The notes under the pieces are model-generated. The model was not told where the DNA came from and searched no databases. It saw nothing but the letters and a program-made list of their open reading frames with translations. Of a stretch of 64,000 nucleotides of DNA, positions 468-62,043 are shown piece by piece (positions within the stretch are counted from its first letter, which is position 1; each line of letters opens with the position of its first letter). Made by a program: the position numbers and the translations under genes. Source of the DNA: Comamonas granuli NBRC 101663 (lineage in GTDB: Bacteria; Pseudomonadota; Gammaproteobacteria; Burkholderiales; Burkholderiaceae_C); the NCBI RefSeq assembly GCF_000739995.1, contig NZ_BBJX01000013.1, positions 1 through 64,000 of the forward strand, written 5' to 3'.

Positions 468-1181
468 TCAGCGCCCCAGTGCGGCGAGCGAATCCACCCA
501 GGCGTCGGCGTCCACGCTGCGCGCGCTCTGGCCGTGGTTGTAGCCGTAGGTCACCAGCACCACGGGGCAGCCGGCGGCGCGCGCGGCCTGGGCGTCGTTG
601 CTCGAATCGCCCACCATCAGCGTGCGTGCGGGCTGCGTGCCCAGGGCCTCGCAGGTCATCAGCAGGGGCAGCGGGTCGGGCTTCTTGCGCGCGAAGCTGT
701 CGCCGCCGAAGACCCGCTCGAAATGCGGCGCCAGGCCCTTGGCCTGCAGCAGCGGCTCGGCAAAGGCGCGCGGCTTGTTGGTCAGGCAGGCCAGGCGCAG
801 GCCCGCCGCGCGCAGCGCCGCCAGCCCTTCTGCCGCCCCGGGGTAGACGCGCGCATGCGTGCCGTTGATGCGCCGGTAGTGGCGTTGGTAGCTCTCCCAG
901 GCAGCGGGGTACAACGCTTCGATTTCTGTAGCTGCAGGCGCTTGCCCTGATTGGGCCAGAACGTGCTCAAGCACTGAACGCAGCAAATGCTCCGAGCCCT
1001 TGCCGACCCGGTGGGCGACGGCGGCGGGGGCGATGCCGGGCAGGCCCAGGTCCTGCAGCATGCCGCCCAGGGCGGCGGCGAAATCGCCCAGCGTATCGAC
1101 CAGGGTGCCATCGAGGTCCACGATGGCGGCGTCCAGGCGCGCGCGCAGCGCGCCAGCGCCGAGCAGGAGCGGGGCGTTCAC
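468..1181 (-). CDS. gph: Phosphoglycolate phosphatase (HAD superfamily)
   Basis: The predicted 237-residue protein dephosphorylates 2-phosphoglycolate. HAD motif I is DLDGTLVDT near residue 20, motif II is the LTNKPRAF segment, motif III is KKPDPLPL and motif IV is [12 protein letters not shown], so all catalytic Asp and Lys positions are present. The likely start is GTG at 1181, overlapping the rpe stop by 2 bases (GCGTGA), which implies translational coupling with rpe; that pairing is common in beta-proteobacteria. Within the cap domain, bases ~921-975 match, in antisense, the dispersed palindromic repeat of this genome, so residues around [16 protein letters not shown] may be repeat-derived. 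Confidence 0.93.
921..975 (+). repeat. Palindromic repeat copy inside gph (antisense)
   Basis: TGTAGCTGCAGGCGCTTG matches the family core with a few changes. It lies in the cap-domain coding region of gph without breaking its frame. Confidence 0.5.
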
Positions 1182-1858
1182 GCCAGTTGCGCGCGCATGG
1201 CGCCGATCACGCTCTGGTAGTCGGGCTTGCCGAAGATGGCGCTGCCCGCGACGAAGGTGTCGGCCCCGGCGTCGGCCACGCGGCGGATGTTGTCCTGCTT
1301 GATGCCGCCGTCCACCTCCAGGCGGATGTCCTTGCCGCAGGCGTCGATGCGCCGGCGCACGGCCTCGATCTTGCGCAGCGCCATGTCGATGAAGCTCTGC
1401 CCGCCAAAGCCCGGGTTCACGCTCATGATGAGGATGAGGTCGATGTCCTCGATCACCCAGTCGAGCACGTCCAGCGGCTCGGCCGGGTTGAACACCAGCC
1501 CGGGCCGCACGCCCTTGGCGCGCAGGGCCTGGATGCTGCGGTGCACATGCCGGCTCGCGTCGGGGTGGAAGCTGATGTAGTCCGCCCCCGCGTCGGCAAA
1601 GGCGGCGGCCAGCGCGTCCACGGGCTCGATCATGAGGTGCACGTCGATGGGCACGGCCTGGCCCGCGGGCGTCACCGCGTGGGGCTTGAGGGCCTGGCAG
1701 ACCATGGGGCCGAAGGTGAGGTTGGGCACGTAATGGTTGTCCATCACGTCGAAATGGATCCAGTCGGCACCGGCGGCGATGACGCTGCGCACCTCCTCGC
1801 CCAGGCGGGCGAAGTCGGCAGACAGGATCGAAGGGGCAATGCGGTAGGTGGGGCTCAT
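1178..1858 (-). CDS. rpe: Ribulose-phosphate 3-epimerase
   Basis: The 226-residue TIM-barrel enzyme interconverts ribulose 5-phosphate and xylulose 5-phosphate (pentose phosphate pathway; also Calvin cycle where present). It opens with [20 protein letters not shown] and contains the metal-binding and catalytic motifs [35 protein letters not shown] and EVDGGI. ATG at 1858 gives the family-standard N-terminus; longer in-frame extensions run into apaG sequence and are rejected. It is divergent from apaG with only ~30 bp between the two start codons, so promoters must lie very close to or inside the neighbouring gene. It is followed directly by gph. Confidence 0.96.
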
Positions 1859-1888
1859 GGCGCAATTGTCGCAGTTACCATGCGCGCC

Positions 1889-2290
1889 ATGAGTCCCAAG
1901 CACGCTTTCACCGTCGAGGTCCAGCCGCAGTACCTGCCGCAGGAGTCCGCGCCCGGGCAAGGCATCTACCGCTTCGCGTACACCGTCACCGTCACCAACA
2001 CGGGCGCGGAGGCGGCGCAGCTCGTCGCGCGCCACTGGGTCATCAGCGACGCGCAGGGCCATACGCAGGAGGTGCGTGGCCTGGGCGTGGTGGGCCGCCA
2101 GCCCCTGCTGCAGCCCGGCGAGTCGTTCCAGTACACCAGCGGCTGCCCGCTGCGCACGCCCACGGGCACCATGCACGGCAGCTACCACTGCGTGGGCGCG
2201 GATGGCACGCCCTTCGAGGTGCCCATTGCCCTGTTCCTGCTGGAGGCCGCTGCCGACGGGGCGCCCGGCGCGCCGCGGGTGCTGCATTGA
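1889..2290 (+). CDS. apaG: ApaG family protein (DUF525)
   Basis: The 133-residue protein matches the ApaG/DUF525 beta-sandwich family. It has [14 protein letters not shown] at the N-terminus, then [10 protein letters not shown], the GxGVVGxQPxLxPGExFxYTSG core and the MHGSY motif. In enterobacteria apaG is linked to ksgA/apaH; the biochemical role is not settled. ATG at 1889 (MSPKHAF) is chosen over the in-frame ATG at 1880 because it matches the usual family start. The stop codon overlaps the ATG of the next gene by one base (TGATG), so the two are probably co-translated. Confidence 0.9.
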
Positions 2291-4281
2291 TGGCGGCTTG
2301 CGCGAACGCCCCGGTGCCGGTGGAGCTGGAGCTGCTGCTCGCGCGCCTGGACGCCAGCGCCCCCCTGGCCGAACGCCACCTCTGGCTGCTGGACCTGCTC
2401 GCCTGGGTGCGCGGCCCGGCCGATGCGGTGCCGGCCGCCTGCGCGCGCGTGCACGCCTTCGTCGATGCCGTGCAGGCCCACCCGGCGGTGCAGCAGCGCC
2501 TGCAGGCCTGGTGGCAGGCCCTGGCCGAGACGGTGGACATCACCACCTTGCTGGCCGACTTCGGCTTTGCCGCGCGCAACGCCATGTTCAGCGAGATCGG
2601 TGAGCGCCTGCGCCGCAAGCTCCTGCCCGGCAGCCCCGAGACCATCGACGCCTCGGAGCTGTTCGCCCTGGCGCTGCCCACGGCGTTCGATGCCCAGTGG
2701 CTGGCCGCGCTGCCCGAGGACCTGGTGCAGCGCCTGGTGCCCCTGCTCGCCGGGCCCGGCAGCACGGGCCTGGCCTGGAAGACCGCGCTGCTCGACGCCA
2801 TCACCTACTGCGCGGGGCAGATCCTCTCGACCGGCTTTGCGCCCGACCTGCGCCTGCGCATGAGCGAGGCGGCGCGCGAGTCCCAGCCCTTCCATGCGCT
2901 GATCCGCGACGTGGAGAGCCTGCGCGTGGAGGTGCTGCACGGCCTGCGCACGCCCGAGCGGCTGGACGCGGCCGCTCAGCGCCTGCGCGAGCGGCTCGAC
3001 GCCTGCCGCGCCGCGGTCAACTCGGTGTACCCGCATTTCGCGGACAACGGCATCTCCGTGGGCCTGGTGTTTCGCATGCGCCAGTTGCGCGAGCGCATCC
3101 TGCGCGTGCGCGCGCTGCTCGACTGCGTGCTCTCGCCCACCCCGGCGCACAGCGCGGCGCAGTTGCTGGCGCAACTGGTCAAGGTCGGGCGCGAGCGGCG
3201 CAGCCTGCGCGTGCTGCTGGCGGCCAATACCTCGCTGCTGGCGGCCAAGGTGGCCGAGCGCAGCGCCGAGACGGGCGAGCACTACATCACGCGCACGGCC
3301 GCCGAGTACCGCAGCATGCTGGGCCAGGCCGCGGGCGGCGGCGCGGTGATGGCCTTCACCACGCTCATCAAGTTCGGCCTGTACGCGCTGGCGCTCTCGG
3401 CCTTCTGGGGCGGGTTTGCCGCCGGCATGAACTACGCGCTGAGTTTCGTGCTCATCCAGTTGCTGCATTTCACCGTGGCGACCAAGCAGCCCGCGATGAC
3501 GGCCCCGGCCATGGCCGCCAAGCTCAAGGACCTGGGCCGCGCCGGGGCGGTGGAGTCCTTCGTCGACGAAGTCACGCACCTGGTGCGCTCGCAGGTGGCC
3601 GCCGTGCTGGGCAACGTGCTGGTGGTGTTCCCGGCGGCGCTGGCGCTGTCCCTGCTGTGGGGCGCGCTGTGGGGCCAGCCGCCCCTGGGCGCGGACCAGG
3701 CCCGGCATGTGCTCGATGCGCTGCACCTGCTCGGGCCCTCGCTGCTGTTCGCGGCCTACACCGGCGTGCTGCTGTTTGCCTCCAGCATCGTCGCCGGCTG
3801 GGCGGAAAACGCCTTCGTGCTGCTGCGCCTGGACTCGGCCCTGCGCTACCACCCGCGCAGCACGCGCTGGCTGGGCGCGGCGCGCGCGGCGCGCTGGGCG
3901 CGCTTTCTGCGGGCGAACATTTCCGGCTTTGCCGCCAATATCTCGCTGGGCTTCATGCTCGGGCTCACGCCGGCCGTCGCGGGCTTCTTCGGCCTGGGGC
4001 TGGATGCGCGCCACGTGACGCTCTCCTCGGGCCAGATCGGCGTGGCCAGCGCCACGCTGGGCTGGGACGCGCTGCACCTGGGGGCCTTCTGGTGGGCCGT
4101 GGCCATGATCCCGTTCAACGGCGCGCTCAACGTGGCCGTGAGCTTCTACCTGGCCTTTCACCTGGCGCTGCGCGCGCAGAACGTCAGCGGCGTGGAGCGC
4201 TCACGCATATACACTGCCATCCGTGCGCGCTTGCGCACCGCTCCCTGGAGCTTTTTTCTGCCTGAACGCCGCCGCGCCTGA
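2290..4281 (+). CDS. SpecificRecomb-family (COG4389) membrane protein, named 'site-specific recombinase'
   Basis: The 663-residue protein resembles the Gcr/'site-specific recombinase' family of beta-proteobacteria. The N-terminal half is helical and soluble-looking (helices around LDLLAWVRG and [13 protein letters not shown]-like segments). The C-terminal half holds several hydrophobic helices (near [58 protein letters not shown] and [20 protein letters not shown]). I see no tyrosine-recombinase RHRY set and no serine-recombinase active site, so the family name may mislead and a membrane role is more consistent with the sequence. ATG at 2290 overlaps the apaG stop. Confidence 0.7.
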
Positions 4282-4433
4282 TGGCCGCGGCCGCGCCCCG
4301 CCTGGTGGGGCGCGCATTCAGGTCATCGCCCGGGCGGCCTGCGCCCCGGGGCCGCCGCTGCGCAGGCCCCGCCCGCCGCAGCCTCCGGCCCGCCCTGCCG
4401 GGCTCTACCCGAACGACGGAGAGGACGTACCGC

Positions 4434-6798: not shown

Positions 6799-6813
6799 AG
6801 GCGGTGCACACCC

Positions 6814-7797
6814 ATGGGTGAATTCGACCTCATTGCGCGCCATTTCACGCGCCCCGTGCCGCCCGGCGGTGCGGCGGTACTGGGCGTGGGCGACGACTGC
6901 GCACTGCTCGCGCCGCGGCCGGGCATGCACCTGGCCGTCTCCAGCGACATGCTGGTCGAGGGGCGGCATTTCTTCCCCGACGTGGACCCCGAGGCCCTGG
7001 GCCACAAGGCGCTGGCGGTGAACCTGTCCGACCTGGCCGCCTGCGGCGCGCGCCCGCTGGCCTTCACGCTGGCGCTGGCCCTGCCGCAGGCCGACGATGC
7101 CTGGCTGGCCGCGTTCGCGCGCGGCCTGCTGCGCCTGGCCGATGCGCACGGTTGCGCGCTCGTGGGCGGCGACACCACGCGCGGGCCGCTCAATATCTGC
7201 ATCACCGTGCTGGGCGAAGTGCCGGCGGGCCAGGCCCTGCTGCGCAGCGGCGCGCGCGCGGACGAGGACATCTGGGTCAGCGGCAGCCTGGGCGATGCGC
7301 GCGCGGCGCTGTGCGCCCTGCAGGGCCAGGCCGCCTTGCCCCCGCAACTGCTGCAGGCGGCGCGCCAGCGCCTGGAGCGCCCCACGCCGCGCGTGGCCCT
7401 GGGACAGGCGCTGCGCGGCATCGCCAGCAGCGCGCTGGATGTGAGCGACGGCCTGCTCGGCGACCTGGGCCACATCCTGCGGGCCTCGGGCGTGGGGGCC
7501 TGCATCGACACCTCCAGGACTATCGAATTGATAGCTATTGGCGCTCAAGCAGCAAGCGCTGGAACCCATTTTGACCCCGAATTTCTGCACCAGTGCACGC
7601 TCGCCGGGGGGGACGACTACGAGCTGCTGTTCACCGCCCCCGCCGCGGCGCGCGCCGCCGTGCAGGCCGCCGCCCAGGGCTGCGGCACGCCGGTGGCGCG
7701 CATCGGCCGCACCGAGGCGCAGCCCGGGCTGCGCCTGGTCGACGGCCAGGGGCGCGCCGTGCCCGGGCGCTTTGCGTCCTTCGACCACTTCGCCTGA
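6814..7797 (+). CDS. thiL: Thiamine-monophosphate kinase
   Basis: The 327-residue enzyme phosphorylates thiamine monophosphate to thiamine diphosphate. It has the PurM-like fold signatures GVGDDCALL, SSDMLVEGRHFF, NLSDLAACGARP, GGDTTRGP, VSGSLGDARAAL, SALDVSDGLLGDLGHIL and GGDDYELLF. Between DLGHILRASGVG and GGDDYELLF the usual loop is replaced by a segment (TIELIAIGAQAASAGTHFD) encoded by a near-consensus copy of the genome's palindromic repeat at ~7521-7575; the reading frame is maintained. Often thiL sits next to pgpA; here four genes separate them. Confidence 0.95.
   Translation: MGEFDLIARHFTRPVPPGGAAVLGVGDDCALLAPRPGMHLAVSSDMLVEGRHFFPDVDPEALGHKALAVNLSDLAACGARPLAFTLALALPQADDAWLAAFARGLLRLADAHGCALVGGDTTRGPLNICITVLGEVPAGQALLRSGARADEDIWVSGSLGDARAALCALQGQAALPPQLLQAARQRLERPTPRVALGQALRGIASSALDVSDGLLGDLGHILRASGVGACIDTSRTIELIAIGAQAASAGTHFDPEFLHQCTLAGGDDYELLFTAPAAARAAVQAAAQGCGTPVARIGRTEAQPGLRLVDGQGRAVPGRFASFDHFA
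7521..7575 (+). repeat. Palindromic repeat copy inside thiL (sense)
   Basis: ATTGATAGCTATTGGCGCTC, AAGCAGCAAGCGCTGG and CCCATTTTGAC follow the family order: core, CAAGCGCT arm and terminal CCATTTTGAC. It encodes an in-frame loop of ~18 residues in thiL. Confidence 0.75.
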
Positions 7798-7811
7798 AGG
7801 CGCGCCGCGGT

Positions 7812-8708: not shown

Positions 8709-8810
8709 ATTCAGATATTACCGAAGTCAAATTCATATTTCATCTGCTTTTTTCTGTAGATCAATGGCCTTACCTTCGCTCCATTCCTTGTTTTTCTGGA
8801 GACCTGTTCC
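8709..8810. promoter_or_regulatory. AT-rich divergent intergenic region between nhaR-like and BI-1/YccA genes
   Basis: This 102-bp gap is markedly AT-rich compared with its surroundings, with stretches such as TTCATATTCAGATATTACC and CAAATTCATATTTCATC. It must hold promoters for both flanking genes and a likely LysR-type site (T-N11-A dyads are present but not diagnostic). No unambiguous -35/-10 pair was assigned. Confidence 0.4.
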
Positions 8811-9488: not shown

Positions 9489-9513
9489 TCGCATTCTTGC
9501 CAAGGAGTACCCC

Positions 9514-11077: not shown

Positions 11078-11610
11078 GCGCTGATGCTGCGCCTGGTATG
11101 CTATCGAATCAGGAGCTACTGGCGCTGGATGGACAAGCGCTGGAGCCCCTTTTGCTGCATATTGCCGCGCGGCTGCAGGCGCGCGGCCAGATGCTGGCGG
11201 CGGCCGAGAGCTGCACGGGCGGCCTGATCGCCGGGGCCTGCACCCACCTGGCGGGCTCCAGCCTATGGTTCGAGCGCGGCTTCGTGAGCTATTCCAACGC
11301 CGCCAAGACCGAGCTGCTGGGCGTGGACCCGGCCCTGATCGCGCGGCACGGCGCCGTGAGCGAGCCCGTGGCGCGCGCCATGGCCGAGGGGGCGCTGGCG
11401 CGCTCGCCCGCCCAGGCCAGCCTGGCGGTGACGGGCGTGGCCGGGCCCGGGGGCGGCAGCCCGGACAAGCCCGTGGGCACGGTGTGGTTCGCCTGGTGCG
11501 TGGACGGGCGCACGCACAGCCAGTGCCAGCACTTTGCCGGCGGCCGCGCCGCCGTGCGCGCGGCCACGGTGGCGCACGCGCTGGAGCGGCTGGGCGCGTT
11601 ACTCGGCTGA
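11074..11610 (+). CDS. pncC: Nicotinamide-nucleotide amidase (CinA C-terminal domain)
   Basis: The 178-residue stand-alone CinA C-terminal protein deamidates NMN to NaMN in pyridine nucleotide recycling. Core motifs are [13 protein letters not shown] (catalytic Ser region), GGFVSYSN-like [52 protein letters not shown] and RAAVRAATV. The first ~30 residues ([17 protein letters not shown]) precede the normal family start and are encoded by a palindromic repeat copy at ~11099-11156, so the N-terminal extension appears repeat-derived. The gene's end overlaps queA tail-to-tail by 12 bp. Confidence 0.92.
11099..11156 (+). repeat. Palindromic repeat copy at the 5' end of pncC (sense)
   Basis: GGAGCTACTGGCGCTGGATG then GACAAGCGCTGGAGCCCCTT matches the family through its second arm. 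It encodes the N-terminal extension of PncC. Confidence 0.75.
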
Positions 11611-14183: not shown

Positions 14184-16277
14184 ATGCCTGCCGCCCCCAG
14201 CCCCGCCCAGCAGGCCCTGCGCAAGCTGGGCCTGACGCGCGACATCGACCTGGCCCTGCACCTGCCGCTGCGCTACGAGGACGAGACGCGCATCACCCCC
14301 CTGCAGAGCGCGCGCGACGGCGCGGTGGTGCAGATCGAGGCCACGGTCACCGCCAGCGAGGTGCAGTTGCGCCCGCGCCGCCAGCTCCTGGTGCACGTGG
14401 ACGACGGCACCGGCACCTGCGAGCTGCGCTTCTTCAGCTTCTACCCCTCGCAGCTCAAGACCATGGCCGTGGGCGCGCGCCTGCGCATCCGCGGCGAGGT
14501 CAAGGGCGGCTTCTGGGGGCGGCAGATGCTGCACCCGGCGGTGCGCGCTGCCCACGGCGCGCTGCCCACGGCGCTCACGCCGGTCTACCCCAGCACCGCC
14601 AGCCTGCCCCAGCCCTACCTGCGCCGCGCCATCGCCACCGCGCTGCAGCGCGCCGACCTGTCCGACACCCTGCCGCCCGGGGTCGCGCCGCCGCTGGTGC
14701 GGGTTTGGGGTCAAAATGGCCCGCAGAGCCCGTACAGCCTGCGCGAGGCGCTATTGTTTTTGCACCACCCGGCACCCGAGGTGGCCCTGGCCACGCTCGA
14801 AGACCACAGCCACCCGGCCTGGCAGCGCCTCAAGGCCGAGGAGCTGCTGGCCCAGCAGCTCAGTCAGCAGCAGTCGCGCCTGGCGCGCAGCCGCCTGCGC
14901 GCCCCGGTGCTGCGCGCGCCGCACGCTGCGCCGGCCGCCCCGCTGCATGCGCAACTGCTCGCCCAGCTCCCCTTTGCCCTCACGGCCGCGCAGCAGCGCG
15001 TGGACGGCGAGATCGCCGCCGACCTCGCGCGCCCCGTGCCCATGCACCGCCTGCTGCAGGGCGACGTGGGCGCGGGCAAGACCGTGGTGGCCGCGCTGGC
15101 GGCCTGCCGCGCCATGGACGCGGGCTGGCAGTGCGCGCTCATGGCGCCCACGGAAATCCTGGCCGAGCAGCACTTTGCCAAGCTGGTCGGCTGGTTGGAG
15201 CCGCTGCTGGCCGCCAGCGGCCGCCGCGTGGCCTGGCTGTCGGGCGGGCAGAAGAAGAAGGAGCGCGCCGCCATGCTGGCGCTGGTGGAGAGCGGCGCGG
15301 CCGCGCTGGTGGTGGGCACGCATGCCGTGATCCAGGAGCAGGTGCGCTTCCAAAACCTGGCGCTGGCCATCATCGACGAGCAGCACCGCTTCGGCGTGGC
15401 GCAGCGCCTGGAACTGCGCCGCAAGCTGCAGGCGCAGGGCATGGAGCCGCACCTGCTGATGATGAGCGCCACGCCCATCCCGCGCACCCTGGCCATGAGC
15501 TACTACGCCGACCTGGACGTCTCGGTGATCGACGAGCTGCCGCCGGGGCGCACGCCCATCGTCACCAAGCTGATCGCCGACAGCCGGCGCGACGAGGTGA
15601 TCGCGCGCATCGCCGCGCAGGTGGCCGCCGGGCGGCAGGTGTACTGGGTGTGCCCGCTGATCGAGGAGAGCGAGGCGCTGGACCTGTCCAACGCCACGGC
15701 CACGCATGCCGAGCTCAGCGCGGCCCTGCCCGGTGCGATGGTGGGCCTGCTGCACTCGCGCATGCCCGCGGCCGAGAAGAAGGCGGTCATGGCGCAGTTC
15801 AGCGGCGGGCAGATGGGCGTGCTGGTGAGCACCACGGTGATCGAGGTGGGCGTGGATGTGCCCAACGCCTCGCTCATGGTCATCGAGCATGCCGAGCGCT
15901 TCGGCCTGTCGCAGCTGCACCAGTTGCGCGGGCGCGTGGGGCGCGGCGCGGCCGCCTCGGCCTGCGTGCTGCTCTATGCCACGAACGACAGCGGCCGCCT
16001 GGGCGAGACCGCGCGCGAGCGCCTGCGCGCCATGCTGGAGACGAACGACGGCTTCGAGATCGCCCGGCGCGACCTGGAGATCCGCGGGCCGGGCGAGTTC
16101 CTGGGCGCGCGCCAGTCGGGCGATGCGCTCTTGCGCTTTGCCGACCTGGCCACGGACGCGCCGCTGCTCGAATGGGCCCGCGCGCTGGCGCCGCAGATGC
16201 TCGCGCAGCACCCGGAGCTGGCCGCCCGGCATGTGGCGCGCTGGCTCGGCGGCAAGGCCGACTACCTCAAGGCGTAG
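14184..16277 (+). CDS. recG: ATP-dependent DNA helicase RecG
   Basis: The 697-residue fork-regression helicase has an N-terminal wedge/OB domain (ATVTASEVQLRPRRQLLVHV, CELRFFSFYPSQ) and superfamily 2 motor motifs: GDVGAGKTVVAA (Walker A), APTEILAEQH, IIDEQHRFG (DExH-like DEQH), MMSATPIPRTLAMSYY, VYWVCPLIEESE, LLHSRMP, TTVIEVGVDVPNA and QLHQLRGRVGRG. The length is normal for the family. It converges on the following GGDEF/EAL gene, overlapping it by 11 bp at the 3' ends. Confidence 0.97.
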   Translation: MPAAPSPAQQALRKLGLTRDIDLALHLPLRYEDETRITPLQSARDGAVVQIEATVTASEVQLRPRRQLLVHVDDGTGTCELRFFSFYPSQLKTMAVGARLRIRGEVKGGFWGRQMLHPAVRAAHGALPTALTPVYPSTASLPQPYLRRAIATALQRADLSDTLPPGVAPPLVRVWGQNGPQSPYSLREALLFLHHPAPEVALATLEDHSHPAWQRLKAEELLAQQLSQQQSRLARSRLRAPVLRAPHAAPAAPLHAQLLAQLPFALTAAQQRVDGEIAADLARPVPMHRLLQGDVGAGKTVVAALAACRAMDAGWQCALMAPTEILAEQHFAKLVGWLEPLLAASGRRVAWLSGGQKKKERAAMLALVESGAAALVVGTHAVIQEQVRFQNLALAIIDEQHRFGVAQRLELRRKLQAQGMEPHLLMMSATPIPRTLAMSYYADLDVSVIDELPPGRTPIVTKLIADSRRDEVIARIAAQVAAGRQVYWVCPLIEESEALDLSNATATHAELSAALPGAMVGLLHSRMPAAEKKAVMAQFSGGQMGVLVSTTVIEVGVDVPNASLMVIEHAERFGLSQLHQLRGRVGRGAAASACVLLYATNDSGRLGETARERLRAMLETNDGFEIARRDLEIRGPGEFLGARQSGDALLRFADLATDAPLLEWARALAPQMLAQHPELAARHVARWLGGKADYLKA

Positions 16278-20207: not shown

Positions 20208-20708
20208 ATGGCCAAAGCCCCCAAGACCACCGCACCCGCCATCCACATCGGCATCAGCGAGAAGGACCGCGCCGCCATCGCCCAGGGCCTGGCGCGCCTG
20301 CTGGCCGACACCTACACCCTGTACCTGACCACGCACAACTTCCACTGGAACGTGACCGGGCCCATGTTCAACACCCTGCACGCCATGTTCATGGGGCAGT
20401 ACACCGAGCTGTGGAACGCGGTGGACCCGATCGCCGAGCGCATCCGTTCGCTGGGCCATGTGGCGCCGGGCTCGTACGCCGAGTTCGGCAAGCTCGCCAG
20501 CGTGCCCGACGCGCCGGCCAAGCCGCCCAAGGCGCTGGAGATGGTGCGCGTGCTGGTCGAGGGCCACGAGGCCGTGGCGCGCACCGCGCGCAGCCTGTTC
20601 CCGCTGGTGGACAAGGCCAGCGACGAGCCCACGGCCGACCTGCTCACCCAGCGCCTCGCGGTGCACGAGCAGACCGCCTGGATGCTGCGCTCCCTGCTAG
20701 AAGATTGA
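20208..20708 (+). CDS. dps: Dps-family ferritin-like DNA-protecting protein
   Basis: The 166-residue four-helix protein oxidises and stores iron using peroxide and protects DNA. It has the ferroxidase helix pair [20 protein letters not shown] and [16 protein letters not shown] with the conserved His, Asp and Glu ligands at the dimer interface, and [12 protein letters not shown] near the end. The N-terminus carries Lys and Thr residues that may aid DNA binding. GAAAGGAG precedes the ATG. Its last codons and stop (LLED-TGA) lie in a degenerate copy of the palindromic repeat, which merges into the terminator. Confidence 0.95.
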
Positions 20709-20749
20709 TAGCTTGTAGCGCTGGCTGCACAAGGGCTTCGGCCCTTTTT
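20698..20749 (+). terminator. Intrinsic terminator of dps embedded in a palindromic repeat copy
   Basis: AAGGGC-TTCG-GCCCTT (20730-20745) is a stable UUCG-capped hairpin followed by a T-run through 20749. Immediately upstream, GATTGATAGCTTGTAGCGC matches the dispersed repeat core, and the dps stop codon TGA lies inside it. ubiA begins 26 bp later and therefore needs its own promoter or readthrough. Confidence 0.85.
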
Positions 20750-20774
20750 TCTTTGTTTTTCCGGATACCCCGCG

Positions 20775-21649: not shown

Positions 21650-22474
21650 CTAGCGGCCGAACTCCGCCGCCAGCTCCTGCGCGCGCTGTTCGGCCGCGCG
21701 GATGGCCGCAATGAAATGCTCGGGCACATGCTGCGCCTGCAGGTGGCTGATGGCCGCGTGCGTGGTGCCGCCCTTGCTGGTGACGCGCTGGCGCAGCACC
21801 TCGGGGCCTTCGTCCGAGCGCGCCGCCAGCTCGGCCGCGCCCTGGAAGGTGGCCACGGCCAGCCGGTAGGCCTGGTCGGCGGGCAGGCCCATGTCCACGC
21901 CGGCCTGGGTCATGGCCTCCAGGAACAGGAACACATAGGCGGGCCCCGAGCCCGAGAGCGCGGTCACGGCGTCGAGCTGCGCCTCGCGCTCGACCCACAG
22001 CGTCTGGCCCGTGCTCTGCGCCACCTGCTCGGCCAGGCGCCGGCCGGCGGCGTCCACCTGCGGGCGCGCGAACAGCGCCGTCATGCCCATGCCCACCAGC
22101 GCGGGGGTGTTGGGCATGCTGCGCACGATGCGCTCGCTGCCCAGCCAGCGCGTGATGCTGTCGCTGGTGATGCCCGCGGCCACGCTCAGGTGCAAGGCCT
22201 GCGCGGTGTGCGGCGCGGCGGCCTGGGCGGCTGCGTGGAAGGTTTGCGGCTTGACGGCCCACACCACCAGGCCCGCGCGCGCCAGCGCCGCCGTGGGCGC
22301 GCTGTGCGCGGCAATGCCCCAGCGCTGCTGGAGCGCGGCGCGGGTGGGCTCCAGGGGCTCGACCACGTCGATCTGGCTGGCGGGCAGGCCGCGCTGGAGC
22401 AGGCCGCCGATGATGGCGCCGGCCATGTTGCCGCCGCCGATGAAGGCTATGGGGGGAAAGGTGTCGTGCGTCAT
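21650..22474 (-). CDS. proC: Pyrroline-5-carboxylate reductase
   Basis: The 274-residue NAD(P)H-dependent enzyme makes proline from pyrroline-5-carboxylate. It begins PPIAFIGGGNMAGAIIGGLL (Rossmann GxGxMA) and contains VWAVKPQ, SVAAGI, RSMPNTPALVGMGMTAL, AVTALSGSGPAYVFLFLEAM and SKGGTTHAAI, the C-terminal substrate-site signature. ATG at 22474 is preferred over 22495, since the extra seven residues are not family-like. It lies downstream of glpK on the same strand, separated by 147 bp containing an inverted pair of palindromic repeats. Confidence 0.96.
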   Translation of the reverse strand: MTHDTFPPIAFIGGGNMAGAIIGGLLQRGLPASQIDVVEPLEPTRAALQQRWGIAAHSAPTAALARAGLVVWAVKPQTFHAAAQAAAPHTAQALHLSVAAGITSDSITRWLGSERIVRSMPNTPALVGMGMTALFARPQVDAAGRRLAEQVAQSTGQTLWVEREAQLDAVTALSGSGPAYVFLFLEAMTQAGVDMGLPADQAYRLAVATFQGAAELAARSDEGPEVLRQRVTSKGGTTHAAISHLQAQHVPEHFIAAIRAAEQRAQELAAEFGR

Positions 22475-22528
22475 GGCGGGCATTGTGCGCCACATGGGCG
22501 CCGCGGCGCCGGTCGGGGGCGGCGCTCT

Positions 22529-22625
22529 TGAAACAATAGCTGCTTGCGCAGGTTATTCAAAGAATTCAGATAAGAACTGGCCTGAAAACCTCTTGCAGCC
22601 TGCGCAGGCAGCTATCGTTTTTCAG
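22529..22625. repeat. Inverted pair of palindromic repeats between glpK and proC
   Basis: AATAGCTGCTTGCGCAGG (~22535-22552) and the opposing CCTGCGCAGGCAGCTATC (~22598-22617) can pair over about 15 bp with one mismatch across an A/T-rich loop. The glpK stop codon lies at the right edge. The structure is likely a transcription terminator for glpK and is a two-copy member of the dispersed family. Confidence 0.7.
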
Positions 22626-24121
22626 GATTCGGGCAGCGTGGCCTGGGCCACGGCATGCTCCCAGCGCGCCATGAGCGACTGCGCCTGCGCGCGGGGCAGG
22701 GTGGGCACGAAGCGGCGCTCGGCGCGCCACAGGTCCGACAGCTCGGCCGTGCTGGCGTACACGCCGCTGGCCAGGCCCGCGAGGTAGGCCGCACCCAAGG
22801 CCGTGGTCTCCACCACGGCCGGGCGCACCACGGGGATGCCCAGCAGGTCGGCCTGGAACTGCATGAGCAGGTCGTTGACGCAGGCGCCGCCGTCCACGCG
22901 CAGCTCGGACACCGGGCTGCCGCCCGCGGCCACGGCGTCGCGGCCCATGGCGGCGAGCAGGGCGGCGCTCTGGTAGGCGATGGATTCGAGCGCGGCGCGC
23001 GCGATGTGCGCAATGGTGGTGCCGCGCGTGAGCCCGGTGATGGTGCCGCGCGCCTCGGGCTTCCAGTAGGGGGCGCCCAGGCCGGTGAAGGCGGGCACCA
23101 TCATCACGCCGCCCGAGTCGGGCACGCTCTCGGCGAGCGCCTGCACCTCGGAGCTGGCCGAGATGGCGCGCAGCCCGTCGCGCAGCCACTGCACCACGGC
23201 GCCGCCGACGAACACGCTGCCCTCCAGCGCAAAGGCCGGCTGGGCCGTGGGCTGGGCGGCGCTGGTGGTGATCAGGCCGTTGTGGCTGCTCTGGAACTGG
23301 CCGCCCGTGTGCATGAGCATGAAGCAGCCCGTGCCGTAGGTGTTCTTGGCCATGCCGGCGGAGAAGCAGGCCTGGCCGAACAGGGCGCTTTGCTGGTCGC
23401 CCGCCACGCCGCCGATGGCGATGGGGCCGCCCAGCAGGTCGGCCTGGGTGCGGCCGAAGTCGCTGGCCGAGGGCAGCACCTCGGGCAGCAGCGAACGCGG
23501 AATGCGCAGCAGGTCGAGCAGCTCCTGGTCCCATTGGTTGGTGTGCACGTTCAGCAGCATGGTGCGGCTGGCGTTGGAGACGTCCGTCACGTGGCGCTGG
23601 CCGCCCGTGAGCTGCCAGATGAGCCAGCTGTCGACCGTGCCGAAGGCCAGCTCGCCGCGCTCGGCCGCCGCGCGCGCGCCGCCCACGTGGTCCAGCAGCC
23701 ACTGCAGCTTGGTGCCCGAGAAGTAGGCGTCCACCAGCAGCCCGGTCTTGGCCTGGATGGTGGCGGCATGGCCCTGGGCGCGCAGTTGTGCGCAGGCGGG
23801 CTCGGCGCGCCGGTCCTGCCAGACGATGGCGTGGTGCACGGGCTGGCCGGTCTTGCGGTTCCACAGCACGGTGGTCTCGCGCTGGTTGGTGATGCCCAGC
23901 GCGCGCACCTCGCTTGCGGCAATGCCGGCCTGCGCCAGGGCCTCGCGCGCCGTGGCGAGCTGCGTGCGCCAGATCTCCAGGGGGTCGTGCTCCACCCAGC
24001 CGGGCTGCGGGTAGATCTGGGGCAGCTCGCGCTGGGCCTGCGCGACGATGCGGCCGCGCTCGTCGAACACGATGCTGCGCGAGCTGGAGGTGCCCTGGTC
24101 GAGTGCAAGCAGGTAGGTCAT
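22622..24121 (-). CDS. glpK: Glycerol kinase
   Basis: The 499-residue FGGY-family kinase phosphorylates glycerol to sn-glycerol 3-phosphate. Motifs include [17 protein letters not shown] (phosphate 1), [69 protein letters not shown] and [20 protein letters not shown]. Its length matches E. coli GlpK. The glpR gene begins upstream on the same strand with a 21-bp gap, so glpR-glpK is an operon divergent from the glycerol transporter genes. The end lies against a repeat hairpin. Confidence 0.97.
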
Positions 24122-28955: not shown

Positions 28956-29264
28956 ATGTTCGAGTGGATGGCCTGGACCACGCCGGTGGCCGTTTTCTTC
29001 ACCTGCATCGCCCTCATGCTGATCGCCATGACGGTGTGGGAAATCCGCTCTCCCACCGTGGAGCGCAAGGGCTTTCTGCCCATGGCCACCACGCGCGGCG
29101 ACCGCCTGTTCATCGGCCTGCTCACGGCCGCCTACATCAACCTCGCCTGGGTGGGCCTGGGCGAGAAGATGGCCCAGTGGTTCTCCCTGGAGGCCGAGCC
29201 CTCGGTGTGGATCAGCTTCGTGCTCTCCATGCTGGTGCTGGCGCTGGTGCTGCGCAAAGGCTGA
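28956..29264 (+). CDS. glpU: Small membrane protein GlpU (DUF2160)
   Basis: The 102-residue protein has three hydrophobic helices (WTTPVAVFFTCIALMLIAMT, LFIGLLTAAYINLAWVGLG, WISFVLSMLVLALVL) and the conserved WEIRSPTVERKGFLPMATTRGDR loop of DUF2160. It sits between the permeases and the binding protein exactly as glpU does in Rhizobium glycerol operons. It is presumably an accessory membrane subunit; its biochemical role is unknown. ATG at 28956 starts right after the glpQ stop. Confidence 0.85.
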   Translation: MFEWMAWTTPVAVFFTCIALMLIAMTVWEIRSPTVERKGFLPMATTRGDRLFIGLLTAAYINLAWVGLGEKMAQWFSLEAEPSVWISFVLSMLVLALVLRKG

Positions 29265-29370
29265 TATGAAAACGATAGCTGCCAGCGCTTGCTGAAAGAG
29301 CATTTCAGATTGTTTTTGCTTTGGAAATGGCTTTTGGTAAGCGCCAGCAGCTCTGATTTTGATAGTAGCA
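29265..29370. repeat. Inverted pair of palindromic repeats between glpU and glpV
   Basis: ACGATAGCTGCCAGCGCTTGC (starts ~29272) faces AAGCGCCAGCAGCTC...TTTTGATAGTAGC (~29339-29369), giving a long imperfect hairpin with an A/T-rich loop. Because it sits mid-operon, before the gene for the abundant binding protein, it may attenuate transcription or stabilise mRNA segments. Confidence 0.7.
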
Positions 29371-29443: not shown

Positions 29444-31177
<1,734 letters not shown>

Positions 31178-41893: not shown

Positions 41894-41971
<78 letters not shown>

Positions 41972-47735: not shown

Positions 47736-47939
47736 CGGCGGCGATAAGGCTTGAATGCATGCCCAATGGTCGGGCGTAGGCCGATGCCAGTGAAGCAGCG
47801 CATGAAGCCCAGCGTGACAATTTTGGATGTAGAGAGGGGTCAATAGGGGCACTGTGTCACAGCTGACATCCCCATTTATAGAGGAGGAGCACGCACCCAC
47901 ACGATTGAAACCGAACGACCTACTCGTATGGTTTGTGGC
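47736..47939. other. Non-coding island DNA between IS end and attR
   Basis: About 200 bp without a supported gene. An antisense open frame containing DLNLRPLGYE overlaps the tRNA fragment and is a known type of false protein. Nothing else is recognised. Confidence 0.5.
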
Positions 47940-47985
47940 CTCATAACCCAAAGGTCGGAGGTTCAAATCCTTCTCGCGCAACCAA
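47940..47985 (+). repeat. attR: 46-bp copy of the tRNA-fMet 3' end
   Basis: Identical to 41926-41971, from CTCATAACCC through CCA plus one A. It lacks the 5' half of the tRNA (D-arm sequence absent just upstream), so it is an attachment-site remnant and not a tRNA gene. Confidence 0.93.
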
Positions 47986-48490: not shown

Positions 48491-48533
48491 CGTTCCGGGC
48501 AGGCGAGCCCGCGCTGCGCTCTCATCCAGGGCT

Positions 48534-48590
48534 GCTATTTTTTCGATAGCTGCTTGCGCTTGATAGAAGAGCCTTAGAGTCATATTTCAC
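48534..48590 (+). repeat. Palindromic repeat copy upstream of the PCu(A)C gene
   Basis: Contains CGATAGCTGCTTGCGCTTGA followed by TAGAAGAGCC, one of the best matches to the family. It lies between the DUF2946-like and PCu(A)C genes and could separate their transcripts. Confidence 0.7.
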
Positions 48591-48668
48591 CTAAATTGTG
48601 TGCGGTGTGCCCACCCGGGTTGCCGGTGTGTGCTGTCCGCCACGGATGAACGAAGTTTTGGAGTTTCC

Positions 48669-58300: not shown

Positions 58301-59837
58301 CGAGCATGGACTGTGGCAGGGCGAGATCTGGAACCAGCGCAAGAACGGCGAGGTCTACCCCGAGTGGCTCACCATCAGCCGCGTGACCGACGCCGAAGGC
58401 CAGGTCACGCACTACATCGCCATCTTCTCGGACGTGAGCCAGCGCAAGGCCGACGAGCAGCGCATCCGCTGGATGGCGCACTTCGACCTGCTCACCGGCC
58501 TGCCCAACCGTGCCCTGCTGGCCGACCGCTTCGTGCATGCCGTGGGCATGGCCGAGCGCGGCAAGGAGCCCATGGCGCTGATGTTCCTGGACCTGGACCA
58601 CTTCAAGCACATCAATGACTCGCTGGGCCACGGGGCGGGCGACGAGCTGCTGGTGAACGTGGCGCGGCGCATGCGCGAGCTGGTGCGCGAGCAGGACACC
58701 GTCGCGCGCATGGGGGGCGATGAATTCGTGCTGCTGCTGCCGGGCACCGACAAGGACGGCGCGGCCCAACTGGCGCGCCGCCTGCTCGACACCGTGGCCG
58801 CGCCCATCCACATCCGCGAGCACGATCTCATGGTCACGCCCTCGGTGGGCATCGCCATGTACCCGGAGGACGGCTCCGCCCTGGAAACCCTGCTGCAGCA
58901 TGCCGACGTGGCCATGTACCGCGCCAAGCAGGACGGACGCAACGCCTTCCACTTCTTCCTGCCGGACATGCAGGCCCACGCGGCGCGCGCGCTCGAAATG
59001 GAGGGCGCGCTGCGCCGCGCGCTGGAGGGCGGGCAACTGCAGCTGCACTACCAGCCGCAATGCCGCCTGCGCGATGGCCGCATCGTGGGCGTGGAGGCGC
59101 TCATCCGCTGGCAGCACCCCGAATGGGGCATGGTCTCGCCCGCCGAATTCATCCCGCTGGCGGAAAAGCGCGGGCAGATCCTGGCCATCGGTGAATGGGT
59201 GCTGCGCACGGCCGTGCAGCAACTGGCCCAGTGGCAGCGCGCCGGGCTGCCCGACGAGCTCACCATGGCAGTGAACCTCTCGGCCGTGCAGTTCCGCCAC
59301 CCCGACCTGCCGGGCCTGGTGACCCAGGTGCTGCAGGAATACGGCGTGGAGCCCGGCTGCCTGGAACTGGAGCTGACCGAGGGCGTCGCCAGCGACGACC
59401 CCGAACGCGCCGTGGGCATCATGGCCGACCTGCATGCGCGCGGCGTGCGTATGTCCATCGACGACTTCGGCACGGGCTATTCGTCTCTGAGCTACCTCAA
59501 GCGCTTCCAGGTGTACAAGCTCAAGATCGACCGTTCCTTCGTGCGCGACATCATCGAGGACGCCGAGGACAAGGCCATCGTCAGCGCCATCATCCGCATG
59601 GCCGCCAGCCTGGGCCTGCAGACCATCGCCGAGGGCGTGGAGACCGAGGCGCAGCGCCAGGTCCTGCAGGAACAGGGCTGCGACGAGATCCAGGGCTACC
59701 TGTTCAGCCGCCCGCTGCCTGCGCCCGCGTGCGAGCAGCTCATGCGCGAGCGGCTGGGCGCCGCGGCCCCGCCGCCGGCCGGACGCCTCACGCCGCCTGC
59801 AGGTGCGGTCCAGGCTGCGCTGCCGCCATCCCGGTGA
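55314..59837 (+). CDS. Large membrane PAS/GAF sensor with GGDEF and EAL domains
   Basis: The 1507-residue protein has a membrane helix (~25-45), a periplasmic dCache-like sensor, a second helix (~310-335), then PAS, GAF, PAS, GAF and PAS modules, a GGDEF domain ([29 protein letters not shown] near residue 1133) and an EAL domain ([14 protein letters not shown] near 1260, [44 protein letters not shown]). Both catalytic sites look intact, so synthesis or hydrolysis may be switched by signals. Translational coupling to the chemoreceptor (ATGA overlap) ties motility sensing to c-di-GMP. It overlaps dadA tail-to-tail by 50 bp. Confidence 0.93.
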
Positions 59838-61092
59838 ACGCGAAATCGACCTCGGGCACGCGGCCGCTCACAATGTCGGCCAGGGCCTTGCCCGAACCGC
59901 AGGAATGCGTCCAGCCCAGCGTGCCGTGGCCGGTGTTGAGGAACAGGTTGGGCAGGTGGGTGCGGCCGATCAGCGGCACGTTGCTGGGCGTGGCAGGGCG
60001 CAGGCCCGTCCAGAACTGCGCCTGTTCGGTGTGGCCGGCGCCCGGAAAGAGCTGCTCCACCCGGCGCACGATGGCCTGGCAGCGCGTGGCGTTGAGCTCG
60101 CGGCCGTAGCCATTGAGTTCGGCCGTGCCCGCAATGCGCAAGCGGTCGCCCTGCGCGCTGGTATAGCGCGAGAACACCAGCTTGAACTCATCGTCCGTGA
60201 GGCTGACCTCGTGCGCCAGGCGCGCGTCCTTGACCGGAATGGTCACGGAATAGCCCTTGGCCGGGTAGATGGGCAGCTTGAGGCCCAGCGGCCGCGCCAG
60301 CAGCGGGCTGAACGAGCCCAGGGCGAGCACATAGGCGTCGGCGCGCACGCGCTCGAAGCGTCCCTCGGCATTGGTCAGCTCCACATGGTCGATGGCGCCG
60401 CCCGCCGTGCGCAGCGCGGTGATGTGTTCGCCCAGGCGAAAGTGCACGCCCGCTTGCATGCAGAGCGTGGCCAGTTCGCGTGCAAACAGGTTGGCGTCGC
60501 CCGATTCGTCTTCCGCCGTGTAGGTCGCGCCGGCCAGCCGGGGACGGATGTGCGCCAGCGCCGGCTCGATGCGCACGGCCTCGTCGGCGTCGATGACGCG
60601 GCGCTCGCAGCCGAGCTGGCGCATTTGCTCGGCCGGGGCCAGGGCGGCGTCGAACTCCTTGGCGCTGGTGTAGAAATGCAGAATGCCCTGCGTGCGCTGC
60701 TCGTACTGGATGCCCGTGTCGCGGCGCAGTTGTTGCAGCGCAGCGCGGCTGAAGGTGCCCAGGTTGACGATCTGGCGGATGTTGTGGCGCGTGCGCGCGG
60801 GCGTGCAGTTGCGCAGAAAGGACAGGCACCACAGCCACTGGTGCAGATCGGCGCGCATGCGAAACAGCAGGGGCGCATCCTCCTGCCCCAGCCACTGGAG
60901 CACCTTGAGTGGCGCGCTGGGGTTGGCCCAGGGTTCGGCGTGGCTGACGGACACCTGCCCGCCGTTGGCAAAGCTGGTTTCTGCGCCGGGCGCGGCCTGG
61001 CGGTCGATGACGGTCACTTCGTGGCCGAGTTGCTGCAGGTAGTAGGCCGAGGAGACGCCGAGCAAGCCGGCGCCGAGAACGATCACGCGCAT
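59788..61092 (-). CDS. dadA: FAD-dependent D-amino-acid dehydrogenase (DadA-like)
   Basis: The 434-residue flavoenzyme starts MRVIVLGAGLLGVSSAYYLQ (FAD-binding GxGxxG) and contains QLGHEVTVIDRQ, ETSFANGGQVSVSHAEPWAN, WTGLRPATPSNVPLIG and HGTLGWTHSCGSGKALAD, which are DadA hallmarks. Such enzymes deaminate D-amino acids (D-Ala, sometimes glycine-like substrates) and feed electrons to quinones. A tandem glycine riboswitch ~100 nt upstream implies glycine-responsive expression, so glycine or a related amino acid may be a substrate or precursor. Confidence 0.93.
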   Translation of the reverse strand: MRVIVLGAGLLGVSSAYYLQQLGHEVTVIDRQAAPGAETSFANGGQVSVSHAEPWANPSAPLKVLQWLGQEDAPLLFRMRADLHQWLWCLSFLRNCTPARTRHNIRQIVNLGTFSRAALQQLRRDTGIQYEQRTQGILHFYTSAKEFDAALAPAEQMRQLGCERRVIDADEAVRIEPALAHIRPRLAGATYTAEDESGDANLFARELATLCMQAGVHFRLGEHITALRTAGGAIDHVELTNAEGRFERVRADAYVLALGSFSPLLARPLGLKLPIYPAKGYSVTIPVKDARLAHEVSLTDDEFKLVFSRYTSAQGDRLRIAGTAELNGYGRELNATRCQAIVRRVEQLFPGAGHTEQAQFWTGLRPATPSNVPLIGRTHLPNLFLNTGHGTLGWTHSCGSGKALADIVSGRVPEVDFAFTGMAAAQPGPHLQAA

Positions 61093-61114
61093 TTTGAGAG
61101 CCTTTCAAGGTTCT

Positions 61115-61160
61115 AGCGCCCGGCGGGCGCGCGCGACCAGCTATTGAAAAAATAGCAGAC
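61115..61160 (-). repeat. Palindromic repeat copy in the dadA leader
   Basis: On the minus strand GCTATTTTTTCAATAGCTG matches the 5' part of the family (compare GCTATTTTTTCGATAGCTG upstream of the PCu(A)C gene). It lies between the riboswitch and the dadA start, where the GCTATT/AATAGC stem could act in the expression platform. Confidence 0.55.
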
Positions 61161-61194
61161 AGCCAGCGTGCATGGGCCGGGCTGCCGCTCCCCC

Positions 61195-61375
61195 TGTCCT
61201 TGTACCTGAGAGATTCACCGCGGGCTGCTCCAGCCTGCGGTTTGCTCCTTCGGTGCGCCACGGTGGTGGCGGCTCTCCAGACGGCGATGGTATGGGTGCA
61301 GTACGGTACCTGAGCGTGTATGGGAGATTGCGCCTTCGGTGGGGTGTTGACACCCGCTCTCCTGCGGCGCCCATT
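61195..61375 (-). promoter_or_regulatory. Tandem glycine riboswitch upstream of dadA
   Basis: On the minus strand two aptamers follow each other. The first has GGAGAGCGGG, CACCGAAGGCGCAA and the end CGCTCAGGTACC. The second has GGAGAGCCGCC, GCACCGAAGGAGCAAACC and ATCTCTCAGGTAC. The (A)CCGAAGG..GCAA and CTCAGGTA blocks are the conserved glycine-riboswitch core, and the pair with a short linker is the classic cooperative arrangement. The downstream gene is the DadA-like dehydrogenase at 61092. Confidence 0.95.
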
Positions 61376-61463
61376 CTAGGGCGGCCCCGGCGGTTGCGGC
61401 GCTGCGCCGGGGCTTATGCGCGGCAATGCTTGCTTATGGGGCCGCGCCCGCCCGTGGCCGGGC

Positions 61464-61853
61464 TCAGCGCCGGTAGGGGTTGTTCGGGTCGCGGTCGTAG
61501 CGGTTGGGTACGCCGTCGCCATCGCGGTCGCGCCGGCGCTGCTCGCGCTCCCAGTGGCCGCGCTGCATCTGCCAGTGGCCGTTGTGCTCCTGCCAGGCGG
61601 GCGGGCGGTACACATGGCCCGGGCGCGCCTTGACCCAGTAGCCTTCCACCCAGACATAGCCGTGGCGGCGCCATTCCCAATGGCCGGGAACCCAGGCCAT
61701 GCCGCGGCGCGGCGGTGGCGCCACCTGGTGGCGGGGCGGGGGTGGTGCCGTCTGGATGATGACCGTGGCCTCGGTGCGCGCCTGGGCGGCCGGGGCGGCG
61801 GCGCACAGCGCCAGCACGGTCAGGGCGGCGGCGGTGGTGGTGTAGCGGGACAT
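61464..61853 (-). CDS. YXWGXW-repeat envelope protein
   Basis: The 129-residue protein has a signal peptide (TTTAAALTVLALCAAAPAAQA) and YXWGXW-type repeats rich in Trp/Tyr/His (GMAWVPGHWEWRRHGYVWVE, GYWVKARPGHVYRPP, NGHWQMQRGHWE). Its C-terminal RDRDGDGVPNRYDRDPNNP resembles a calcium-binding thrombospondin type-3 loop. ATG at 61853 follows TGAGGAGAACACC. The family function is unknown. It lies upstream of the riboswitch on the same strand. Confidence 0.8.
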   Translation of the reverse strand: MSRYTTTAAALTVLALCAAAPAAQARTEATVIIQTAPPPPRHQVAPPPRRGMAWVPGHWEWRRHGYVWVEGYWVKARPGHVYRPPAWQEHNGHWQMQRGHWEREQRRRDRDGDGVPNRYDRDPNNPYRR

Positions 61854-61991
61854 GGTGTTCTCCTCACAAAATGGATTCCGTGCGGAACCCGGTGCCTGCA
61901 TGGTGCAGGCCGCATGTCAATTCTGTGTAGTGCGTGTGCGAAGGGGTGTGAGCAGATGTGAGCTGTACTGGCACCGCCGACTGAAAATAAA

Positions 61992-62043
61992 GTAAAAATG
62001 GGCTTTGGCGCTTGATCGACAAGCGCAAGCAGCTACAGAAACC
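61992..62043 (-). repeat. Palindromic repeat copy upstream of the zinc-ribbon membrane protein gene
   Basis: On the minus strand GTAGCTGCTTGCGCTTGTCG is followed by ATCAAGCGCCAAAGCCCATT, a full-length match to the family including the internal CGCTTG/CAAGCG arms. It ends ~26 bp before the next ATG. Confidence 0.75.

Follow-up and report, generated by a model that had tools for sequence, protein, structure and literature searches.

What kind of DNA can lie across the coding sequences of conserved enzymes at many places on a bacterial chromosome? The question is raised by a stretch of 64,000 nt from Comamonas granuli NBRC 101663 (contig NZ_BBJX01000013.1, positions 1–64,000; hereafter the window), in which copies of a palindromic motif lie between genes as well as within thiL and gph and at the start of pncC. 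A reading made from the sequence only had described a dispersed palindromic family that inserts peptides into proteins, as the Rickettsia palindromic elements (RPEs) do, and that was probably either mobilized in trans or spread long ago. We find that the repeat is very probably real, family-wide, static, overlaid on genes, maintained as DNA, and subject to concerted evolution. The motif family points away from ordinary jumping DNA and toward an unrecognized process by which the motif is both written and maintained where it stands.

To detect copies, we used a weight matrix trained on 30 copies from the genome, 28 from outside the window and two from within it (at 22522 and 48532), so that the matrix was trained on the same genome that was scanned; reversed and complemented sequence served as decoys. 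The matrix recovered every place named in the sequence-only reading, including the antisense copy in gph, which is the weakest of the window by this first matrix, and the best decoy in the window scan (the reversed or complemented window) scored −2.8 bits. The earlier count of about eleven copies had missed one, located at 14707–14768 in an open reading frame (ORF) that we take to be recG-like, and a retrained matrix gives a window total of 12 (table 1). The strings quoted for the motif at that stage turned out to be composites: the 20-mer occurs exactly once, at 48545, and once with three mismatches, and the end GAGCCCATTTTGAC has no exact match. In the 3.5-Mb C. granuli genome (G000), the pattern ATAGCTGCTTGCGC with at most one mismatch has 148 matches and the reversed pattern has none. 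The retrained matrix was used for the final window scores and for 864 kb of sequence (800 kb of further stretches in addition to the window), where 264 strand-wise matches exceed 15 bits compared with one across two decoys; the sequence-only reading had named a count no higher than chance as grounds against the family, and the count is well above it. Because the motif is nearly palindromic, strand-wise matches were merged, resulting in 155 elements, which extrapolates to ~630 copies in the 3.5-Mb genome; dispersed copies in the hundreds, far more than chance would give, are also what an uptake sequence would show. Spacing between copies is mildly even (coefficient of variation 0.84 vs. 1.00, p ~0.02). 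Genes were called with a home-made hexamer caller, and at least 150 candidates were scored in the R1 model search. No Rfam family matched at any of the 12 window copies at E values up to 0.5. We also considered whether copy-free gaps are foreign islands; among 10 proteins from the two largest gaps, one gap contained nuo genes and the other enzymes such as PEPCK, and the gaps are, therefore, not simply mobile DNA.

Copies occupy the same positions in relatives. Among the best 80 of 283 related stretches, 65 carry a thiL copy of more than 20 bits at one place and in one frame (66 of 81 with the window), and the bearers span Acidovorax, Simplicispira, Polaromonas, Rhodoferax, Ramlibacter, Diaphorobacter, and others; of the remaining thiL sequences, four score 8.7–13.4 bits and 11 score below zero. 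DapF, Dxr, LpxB, and pncC show a pattern like that of thiL. Of 46 pncC loci, 31 have a copy above 15 bits ahead of the PncC motif, whereas the loci from Paracidovorax and Xenophilus have none. For proC, 28 loci were read; in 19 of them a copy of varying orientation begins 780–844 nt past a ProC motif, and the 4 repeat-free genomes have no such copy. For gph, no orthologous copy was recovered among the loci fetched. That the copies are old and positionally static is well supported.

The shared sites are also kept in a particular DNA sequence. We compared G+C content at third codon positions (GC3) within the element and in its flanks, with genomes classed as repeat-bearing or repeat-free by their genome-wide counts and not by the gene under test. 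For ThiL, 40 of the 49 counted genomes were used (32 bearing and eight free; the nine intermediates L140, L142, L145, L150, L173, L174, L175, L176, and L177 were omitted), and GC3 in element and flank is 0.39 and 0.89 in bearing genomes and 0.88 and 0.91 in free ones. For Dxr, DapF, and LpxB, where intermediate genomes were taken as bearing and loci were recovered in 27 of 29, 29 of 30, and 29 of 30 cases, respectively, the element and flank values are 0.42 and 0.81 (n = 19), 0.42 and 0.87 (n = 22), and 0.47 and 0.81 (n = 23) in bearing genomes, and 0.87 and 0.82, 0.74 and 0.92, and 0.78 and 0.82 in free genomes (n = 4 each). The score of the thiL copy rises with the number of copies per Mb (rho 0.60, n = 24; rho 0.84, n = 25), Spearman values that ignore shared ancestry. 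From these comparisons of sequence, it is well supported that the motif is kept as DNA and not merely as peptide.

The motif further differs between lineages. The inner arms read GCGCCCG...TGGGC in Polaromonas P2-4, CGCACGC...GTGCGC in P. glacialis, and GCGCTT...AAGCGC in A. temperans. Log-odds for these dialects were derived from 200-kb samples of the three genomes, with thiL outside the samples, and were applied to thiL copies of more than 20 bits (18 of 21 from Polaromonas and 17 of 18 from Acidovorax; one, L133, belongs to a sampled genome). They separate the 18 Polaromonas from the 17 Acidovorax copies (U = 298 of 306, p = 2e-6 by a Mann–Whitney test that takes no account of shared ancestry). 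An earlier form of the test drew on small numbers of copies from outside thiL (31 and 11, a large share of them probably from pncC), and a different set of copies was used when it was redone. It is thus well supported by sequence comparison that in-gene copies follow the dialect of their genus, consistent with concerted evolution within lineages. Because the thiL site is shared, silent sites are AT-rich, and dialects are genus-specific, we regard the copies as static, maintained at the DNA level, and evolving in concert.

With respect to genes, 92 of the 155 elements are intergenic, 25 lie over gene ends (17 at 3' ends, or ~2% of the 771 called genes), and 38 are intragenic, far below the expectation from a coding fraction of 0.89. 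Intergenic copies prefer gene 3' ends: counting gaps of at least 60 nt, there are 22 copies in 40 convergent gaps, 84 in 263 codirectional gaps, and 10 in 85 divergent gaps; the Fisher test on gaps takes each copy as one gap hit and disregards shared ancestry. Among the intragenic copies, 20 are in frame "anti 2" and 11 in frame "sense 0", so that two frames hold 31 of 38. Stop avoidance alone predicts ~8.6, ~10.6, and 7.8 copies in "anti 2," "sense 0," and "sense 1," the last of which has none (chi-square p = 6e-6), and the same two frames hold 19 of 23 intragenic copies in 200-kb samples of three other genomes. The 38 copies fall in 35 called genes. We searched 30 of the proteins at a strict cut-off and could name 25 (ThiL and Gph were named separately): CbiB, a KDO transferase (WaaA), RlmD, Dxr, LpxB, FolP, YgiQ, PepN, DnaX, EarP, MiaA, MutL, CoaBC, HscA, L-2-hydroxyglutarate oxidase, AceF, LpdA, MrpA, AroA-Cmk, acetoacetate-CoA ligase, CobS, MurG, MurD, MurE, and DapF.

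If such copies were peptide insertions, as had been proposed for thiL and pncC, a full element would add ~20 residues. We chose nine proteins for having solved homologs and counted how many residues each gains or loses on balance within the copy or next to it (some of the counted gaps lie a few residues away from it in PepN and DapF). The change is zero in Dxr, LpxB, and CoaBC (the last against two structures), −2 in MurG, +4 in MurE, +5 in AroA, +7 in both ThiL (against 3MCQ) and PepN, and +10 in DapF, which shrinks to ~3 to 4 residues when repeat-free genomes of the family and a single outgroup genome are taken as the reference. HscA, a tenth protein, gave no alignment to a solved homolog at the cut-off set. 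Dxr and LpxB are equal in length to their counterparts in two outgroup genomes each. Repeat-free genomes have similar residues in other codons at these places, with the same length in LpxB and Dxr and nearly equal length in DapF; orthologs of this kind, which the sequence-only reading had said would speak against insertion, do exist in part. In a structural model of ThiL with a mean predicted local distance difference test (pLDDT) score of 74.9, the element residues lie in a loop, with residues 245–250 below 50, as are residues 19–38 and the C-terminus. The pncC copy would encode an N-terminal peptide of 18 residues if translation starts upstream; the hexamer caller places the start at 11152, past the copy. 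The in-frame thiL copy lies in a modeled loop and the pncC copy at the gene start, as claimed. Across the nine aligned proteins, a range of −2 to +10 residues, positions shared by different genera, maintenance at the DNA level, and concerted evolution by genus do not agree with peptide insertion, and the copies are not simple insertions; copies in flexible linkers (MutL, DnaX, LpdA, AceF, and YgiQ) could be true ones.

To determine how widely the motif is distributed, we counted pattern matches in 150 genomes of the order. Counts above background occur only in one family (f1; four genomes), with 148 matches in G000, 143 in G093, three in G049, and five in G133, and the 146 genomes of other families have at most seven (controls up to 27). 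Among 24 named genomes, counts range from 356 (Simplicispira metamorpha) down to 0 (Paracidovorax citrulli DSM 17060), and a looser pattern gave a maximum of 439 in 25 further genomes. The repeat thus occurs across Comamonadaceae, although some members, such as Paracidovorax, are at background or close to it. By the looser pattern L114, L127, and L130 have 25, 21, and 26 matches (controls 8, 12, and 18), and L165 and L180 have 11 each (controls 17 and 19). The repeat-free G049 has no copies in a 200-kb sample. LpxB of G133, a genome that is nearly repeat-free, keeps a relic of 32 bits; this sequence relic argues for loss rather than primitive absence in the repeat-poor Comamonadaceae lineages. 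Outside chromosomes, a search of 50,697 phage records with a consensus found a single match, and a second consensus was covered to 80% in 3 of 72,556 plasmid records.

A separate observation concerns integrons. A 60-nt consensus matches 1,757 plasmid records, mostly enterobacterial; among 20 plasmid matches listed, 14 are enterobacterial and 13 of those are annotated DUF1010. In the Escherichia coli plasmid NZ_MZ513635.1, a motif copy (L272:1501–1539) lies in the DUF1010 coding sequence 1352–1642; this gene is part of a class 1 integron, where its neighbors are dfrA12 on one side and aadA2 on the other. The presence of the motif sequence suggests that this cassette originated in a Comamonadaceae chromosome.

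The element itself, as a consensus of 131 single elements, is TTGCTATnnAaTtgATAGCTGCTnGCGCTTGCCngACAAGCGCTGnAGGCCnnTTTgACtcaAAA, an imperfect palindrome of ~66 nt that consists of an A/T tract, TAGCTGCTNGCGCTTG, a short loop, CAAGCGCTNGAGGCC, and a second A/T tract. Information is spread across the ~66 positions and copies score up to 68 bits; a CT dinucleotide at the element start is nearly fixed. The flanking tracts (element positions 8–11 and 51–54 in G000 singles) are A-runs, T-runs, or mixed W, as if some copies had undergone inversion of the small CTAT..ATAG loop, for which template switching at hairpins is a possible cause. Among the 155 elements there are 12 close pairs, all inverted and with a start offset of 46–47 nt, that form doublets of ~110 nt. 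The arms are imperfect and, by column-pair counts, their mismatches are themselves conserved. Compared with column-shuffled copies, folding gives z values of −7.3 in G000 and −4.0 in A. temperans, so that arms covary within copies; values of −1.8 and −1.2 in two Polaromonas and −2.6 for thiL orthologs reveal that covariation is uneven. A conserved RNA was considered and rejected: RNAalifold on 32 mixed copies retained just two pairs, and mismatches are conserved. Since covariation is real but uneven, a hairpin or dyad is kept, in part, as a description.

By analogy, the mechanism that we tentatively favor, with somewhat less than even confidence, is a drive like that of uptake sequences. The motif would act as a recognition signal and bias DNA exchange toward itself: alleles closer to the motif of the lineage would be preferentially taken up or recombined, existing sites would be written and rewritten in place within genes and between them, a change in receptor specificity would shift all sites together to produce dialects, and loss of the system would let all sites decay. 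A drive by biased DNA exchange would account together for in-place writing, frames, dialects, and joint loss. That the family represents a drive or self-DNA recognition system in which a long dyad-symmetric motif rewrites the coding DNA of essential enzymes, with dialects and lineage losses, is a possibility that we entertain without counting it as probable; we know of no described counterpart with a motif of such length. Orientation bias within genes and dialects are described for uptake motifs as well (PMC2346458, PMC3630211).

Several observations weigh against an uptake-like drive. In the dialect test, the log-odds of two thiL copies from Acidovorax and of one from Polaromonas point to the wrong genus; two loci (L170 and L178) lost their thiL copy though their genomes (G177 and G173) have 248 and 144 pattern matches; proC of the window itself lacks a copy at the site that other proC loci share; and spacing is only mildly even, with a 22.8-kb copy-free gap that contains core nuo genes. 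Homologs of the ComP_DUS pilin family occur with and without the repeat alike, in 10 of 10 repeat-free and 23 of 24 bearing genomes. Uptake motifs are ~10–30 nt long, unlike the ~66-nt dyad-symmetric motif found here, and covariation of arms within copies is not needed by an uptake motif. Comamonadaceae are, to our knowledge, outside the families known for uptake motifs, and we know of no selective uptake among them; "DNA uptake sequence" was absent from the papers listed in a search of the open-access literature.

The repeat has no transposase within its ~66-nt unit, as had been noted. A REPIN-like family dispersed and renewed by a resident RAYT (a Y1 transposase), with in-gene copies as rare replacements of resident sequence, is another explanation, and one that we consider rather unlikely. 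G000 encodes one RAYT-like Y1_Tnp gene (L031:1159–1908, minus strand), and all 27 relatives searched have a match (26 above the cut-off; 23 with a single match, and further matches in G150, G154, G165, and G166). A motif copy overlaps or abuts the RAYT 3' end in 12 of 22 loci with a placeable ORF (three of the 12 below 16 bits), and the inverted pairs with their constant offset, the covarying arms, and the nearly fixed CT would all suit such elements. However, the copy at the RAYT end is probably a single inherited event, and ~2% of genes carry a 3'-end copy anyway. In the 21 of 24 loci that could be aligned, the RAYT core is intact in bearing genomes and in four repeat-free genomes, so that repeat and RAYT were not lost together and the RAYT-like gene may serve a role apart from repeats. 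REPINs are described as extragenic (PMC3116915), whereas 38 of the 155 copies here are intragenic with little length change and 25 lie over gene ends, though this is a depletion relative to the coding fraction of 0.89, and neither shared positions nor in-place dialect change is expected of a hopping element. Were this explanation true, REP-like (repetitive extragenic palindromic) elements would survive inside coding sequence. Copies are present at both RAYT ends at one locus only (L235, in G153, Paenacidovorax caeni), where the 3' end has a copy and an inverted doublet flanks the 5' end.

Alternatively, the copies may be binding sites of a chromosome-organizing or replication protein, with selection acting at each site and the set decaying once the protein is lost. 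Dyad symmetry with A/T tracts, constraint at the DNA level, joint loss, mildly even spacing, and the preference for gene 3' ends would be natural for such sites, but it is hard to see how selection would hold so long a motif at several hundred of them, copies in essential enzymes would need separate justification, and a dialect shift would require coordinated change at many sites; on balance, we think this unlikely. The view of the sequence-only reading, selfish RPE-like insertions that are ancient and now inherited vertically, draws on in-frame copies in core enzymes, a preferred frame, an element-like stretch ahead of PncC that is present or absent by lineage, and the linker copies that could be true insertions. 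That part of the resemblance holds, whereas the net insertion is absent or small (−2 to +10 rather than ~20 residues), and the dialects do not fit. Nor does an ancient spread alone: silent sites within copies would by now have become GC-rich like the rest, a drift that did occur in lineages without the family any longer, and they remain AT-rich where the family is present. We hold this view to be improbable.

If the favored explanation, biased DNA exchange, is true, the genes of a large family of environmental bacteria are edited by an unrecognized process of their own that works via a DNA motif, and Dxr, LpxB, CoaBC, DapF, AroA, and MurE are among the enzymes in which it has left stretches encoded by the motif. 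It would be a new system for uptake biologists, outside the families where we know of uptake motifs; repeated natural losses (Paracidovorax and others) would be usable for finding the responsible protein; and the motif would be a mark of chromosomal provenance, for example for the integron cassette.

Table 1. Copies of the motif in the 64-kb window (scores by the retrained matrix unless stated).
Copy	Position	Strand	Score (bits)	Context
gph	914..975	+	28.4 (first matrix 17.9)	Gene 468–1181 (minus); antisense to gene, frame "anti 2"
thiL	7517..7578	+	52.6	Gene 6814–7797; sense, frame "sense 0"; encodes TIELIAIGAQAASAGTHFDP
pncC	11098..11159	+	50.7	5' end of gene; sense
recG-like ORF (presumed name)	14707..14768	-	33.3	ORF 14184–16277; antisense, frame "anti 1"
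3' end of dps (name from the sequence-only reading)	20694..20755	+	49.0	Over 3' end of gene 20208–20708
Inverted doublet, left arm	22522..22583	+	26.1	+/- offset 46 nt
Inverted doublet, right arm	22568..22629	-	38.1	
Inverted doublet, left arm	29261..29322	+	54.7	Offset 46 nt
Inverted doublet, right arm	29307..29368	-	33.7	
Intergenic	48532..48593	+	56.9	Contains exact core
Intergenic	61097..61158	-	39.7	Between called gene 59788–61092 (minus) and glycine riboswitch
Intergenic	61989..62050	-	64.7 (window maximum)	Upstream of called gene 62069–63142

In the window, the identities of gph, ThiL, and PncC were assigned by protein search. The doublet at 22522/22568 lies between genes named from their translations as ProC-like (21650–22495, minus) and GlpK-like (22622–24121, minus), and that at 29261/29307 between the called genes 28956–29264 and 29444–31177. 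A glycine riboswitch (61184–61290, minus) directly adjoins the copy at 61097–61158. The 3' end of a tRNA-Met (41894–41971) is repeated ~6 kb downstream at 47936–47985 (50 nt, 98%), and the DNA between the repeats includes an ORF of the phage integrase family, a gene for AcrB-family efflux, and an ORF in which CusF and DUF772 transposase domains are combined; this stretch, which has no motif copy inside, is probably a small integrated metal-resistance island.

Exact motif strings retrieved one unrelated paper from the open-access literature and no account of the repeat, which does not imply absence from print, and "palindromic repeat" combined with the family name retrieved nothing there. By term search, the genus names are absent from PMC3733652 and PMC2817692. 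Among the papers listed in searches of the open-access literature, the only described repeat of these bacteria is the Beta-proteobacterial repeat element (BRE; Hot et al. 2011, PMC3110155), which is ~90 bp long, 69% GC, and often tandem; it is found in Bordetella, and A. citrulli AAC00-1 has four copies. Like the motif, BRE is betaproteobacterial, extends to Comamonadaceae, and has some copies within coding sequence, whereas the motif has 0 pattern matches in P. citrulli DSM 17060 compared with those four copies; identity with BRE was set aside by copy number and GC content and not by sequence.

RPEs share with the motif in-frame copies in conserved proteins, a preferred frame, and the lack of a transposase of their own. 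Unlike them, the motif gives little or no net insertion in nine proteins and is maintained as DNA (PMC2694212 mentions RPEs in passing). REPs and REPINs resemble it in being palindromic, in forming inverted doublets of fixed spacing, and in being depleted in genes, and 12 of 22 RAYT loci here have a copy that lies at the end of the RAYT gene; in contrast to them, many copies of the repeat overlie coding sequence with few insertions or deletions, the positions are shared by different genera, and the repeat can be absent where RAYT persists. The DNA uptake sequences (DUS) of Neisseriaceae and the uptake signal sequences (USS) of Pasteurellaceae are short motifs rather than a 66-nt dyad, ComP_DUS homologs do not track the repeat, and the repeat lies outside the families that we know for uptake motifs; yet, DUS and USS share with it hundreds of copies in and between genes, a bias within genes, and lineage dialects, and they likewise form inverted pairs near gene ends.

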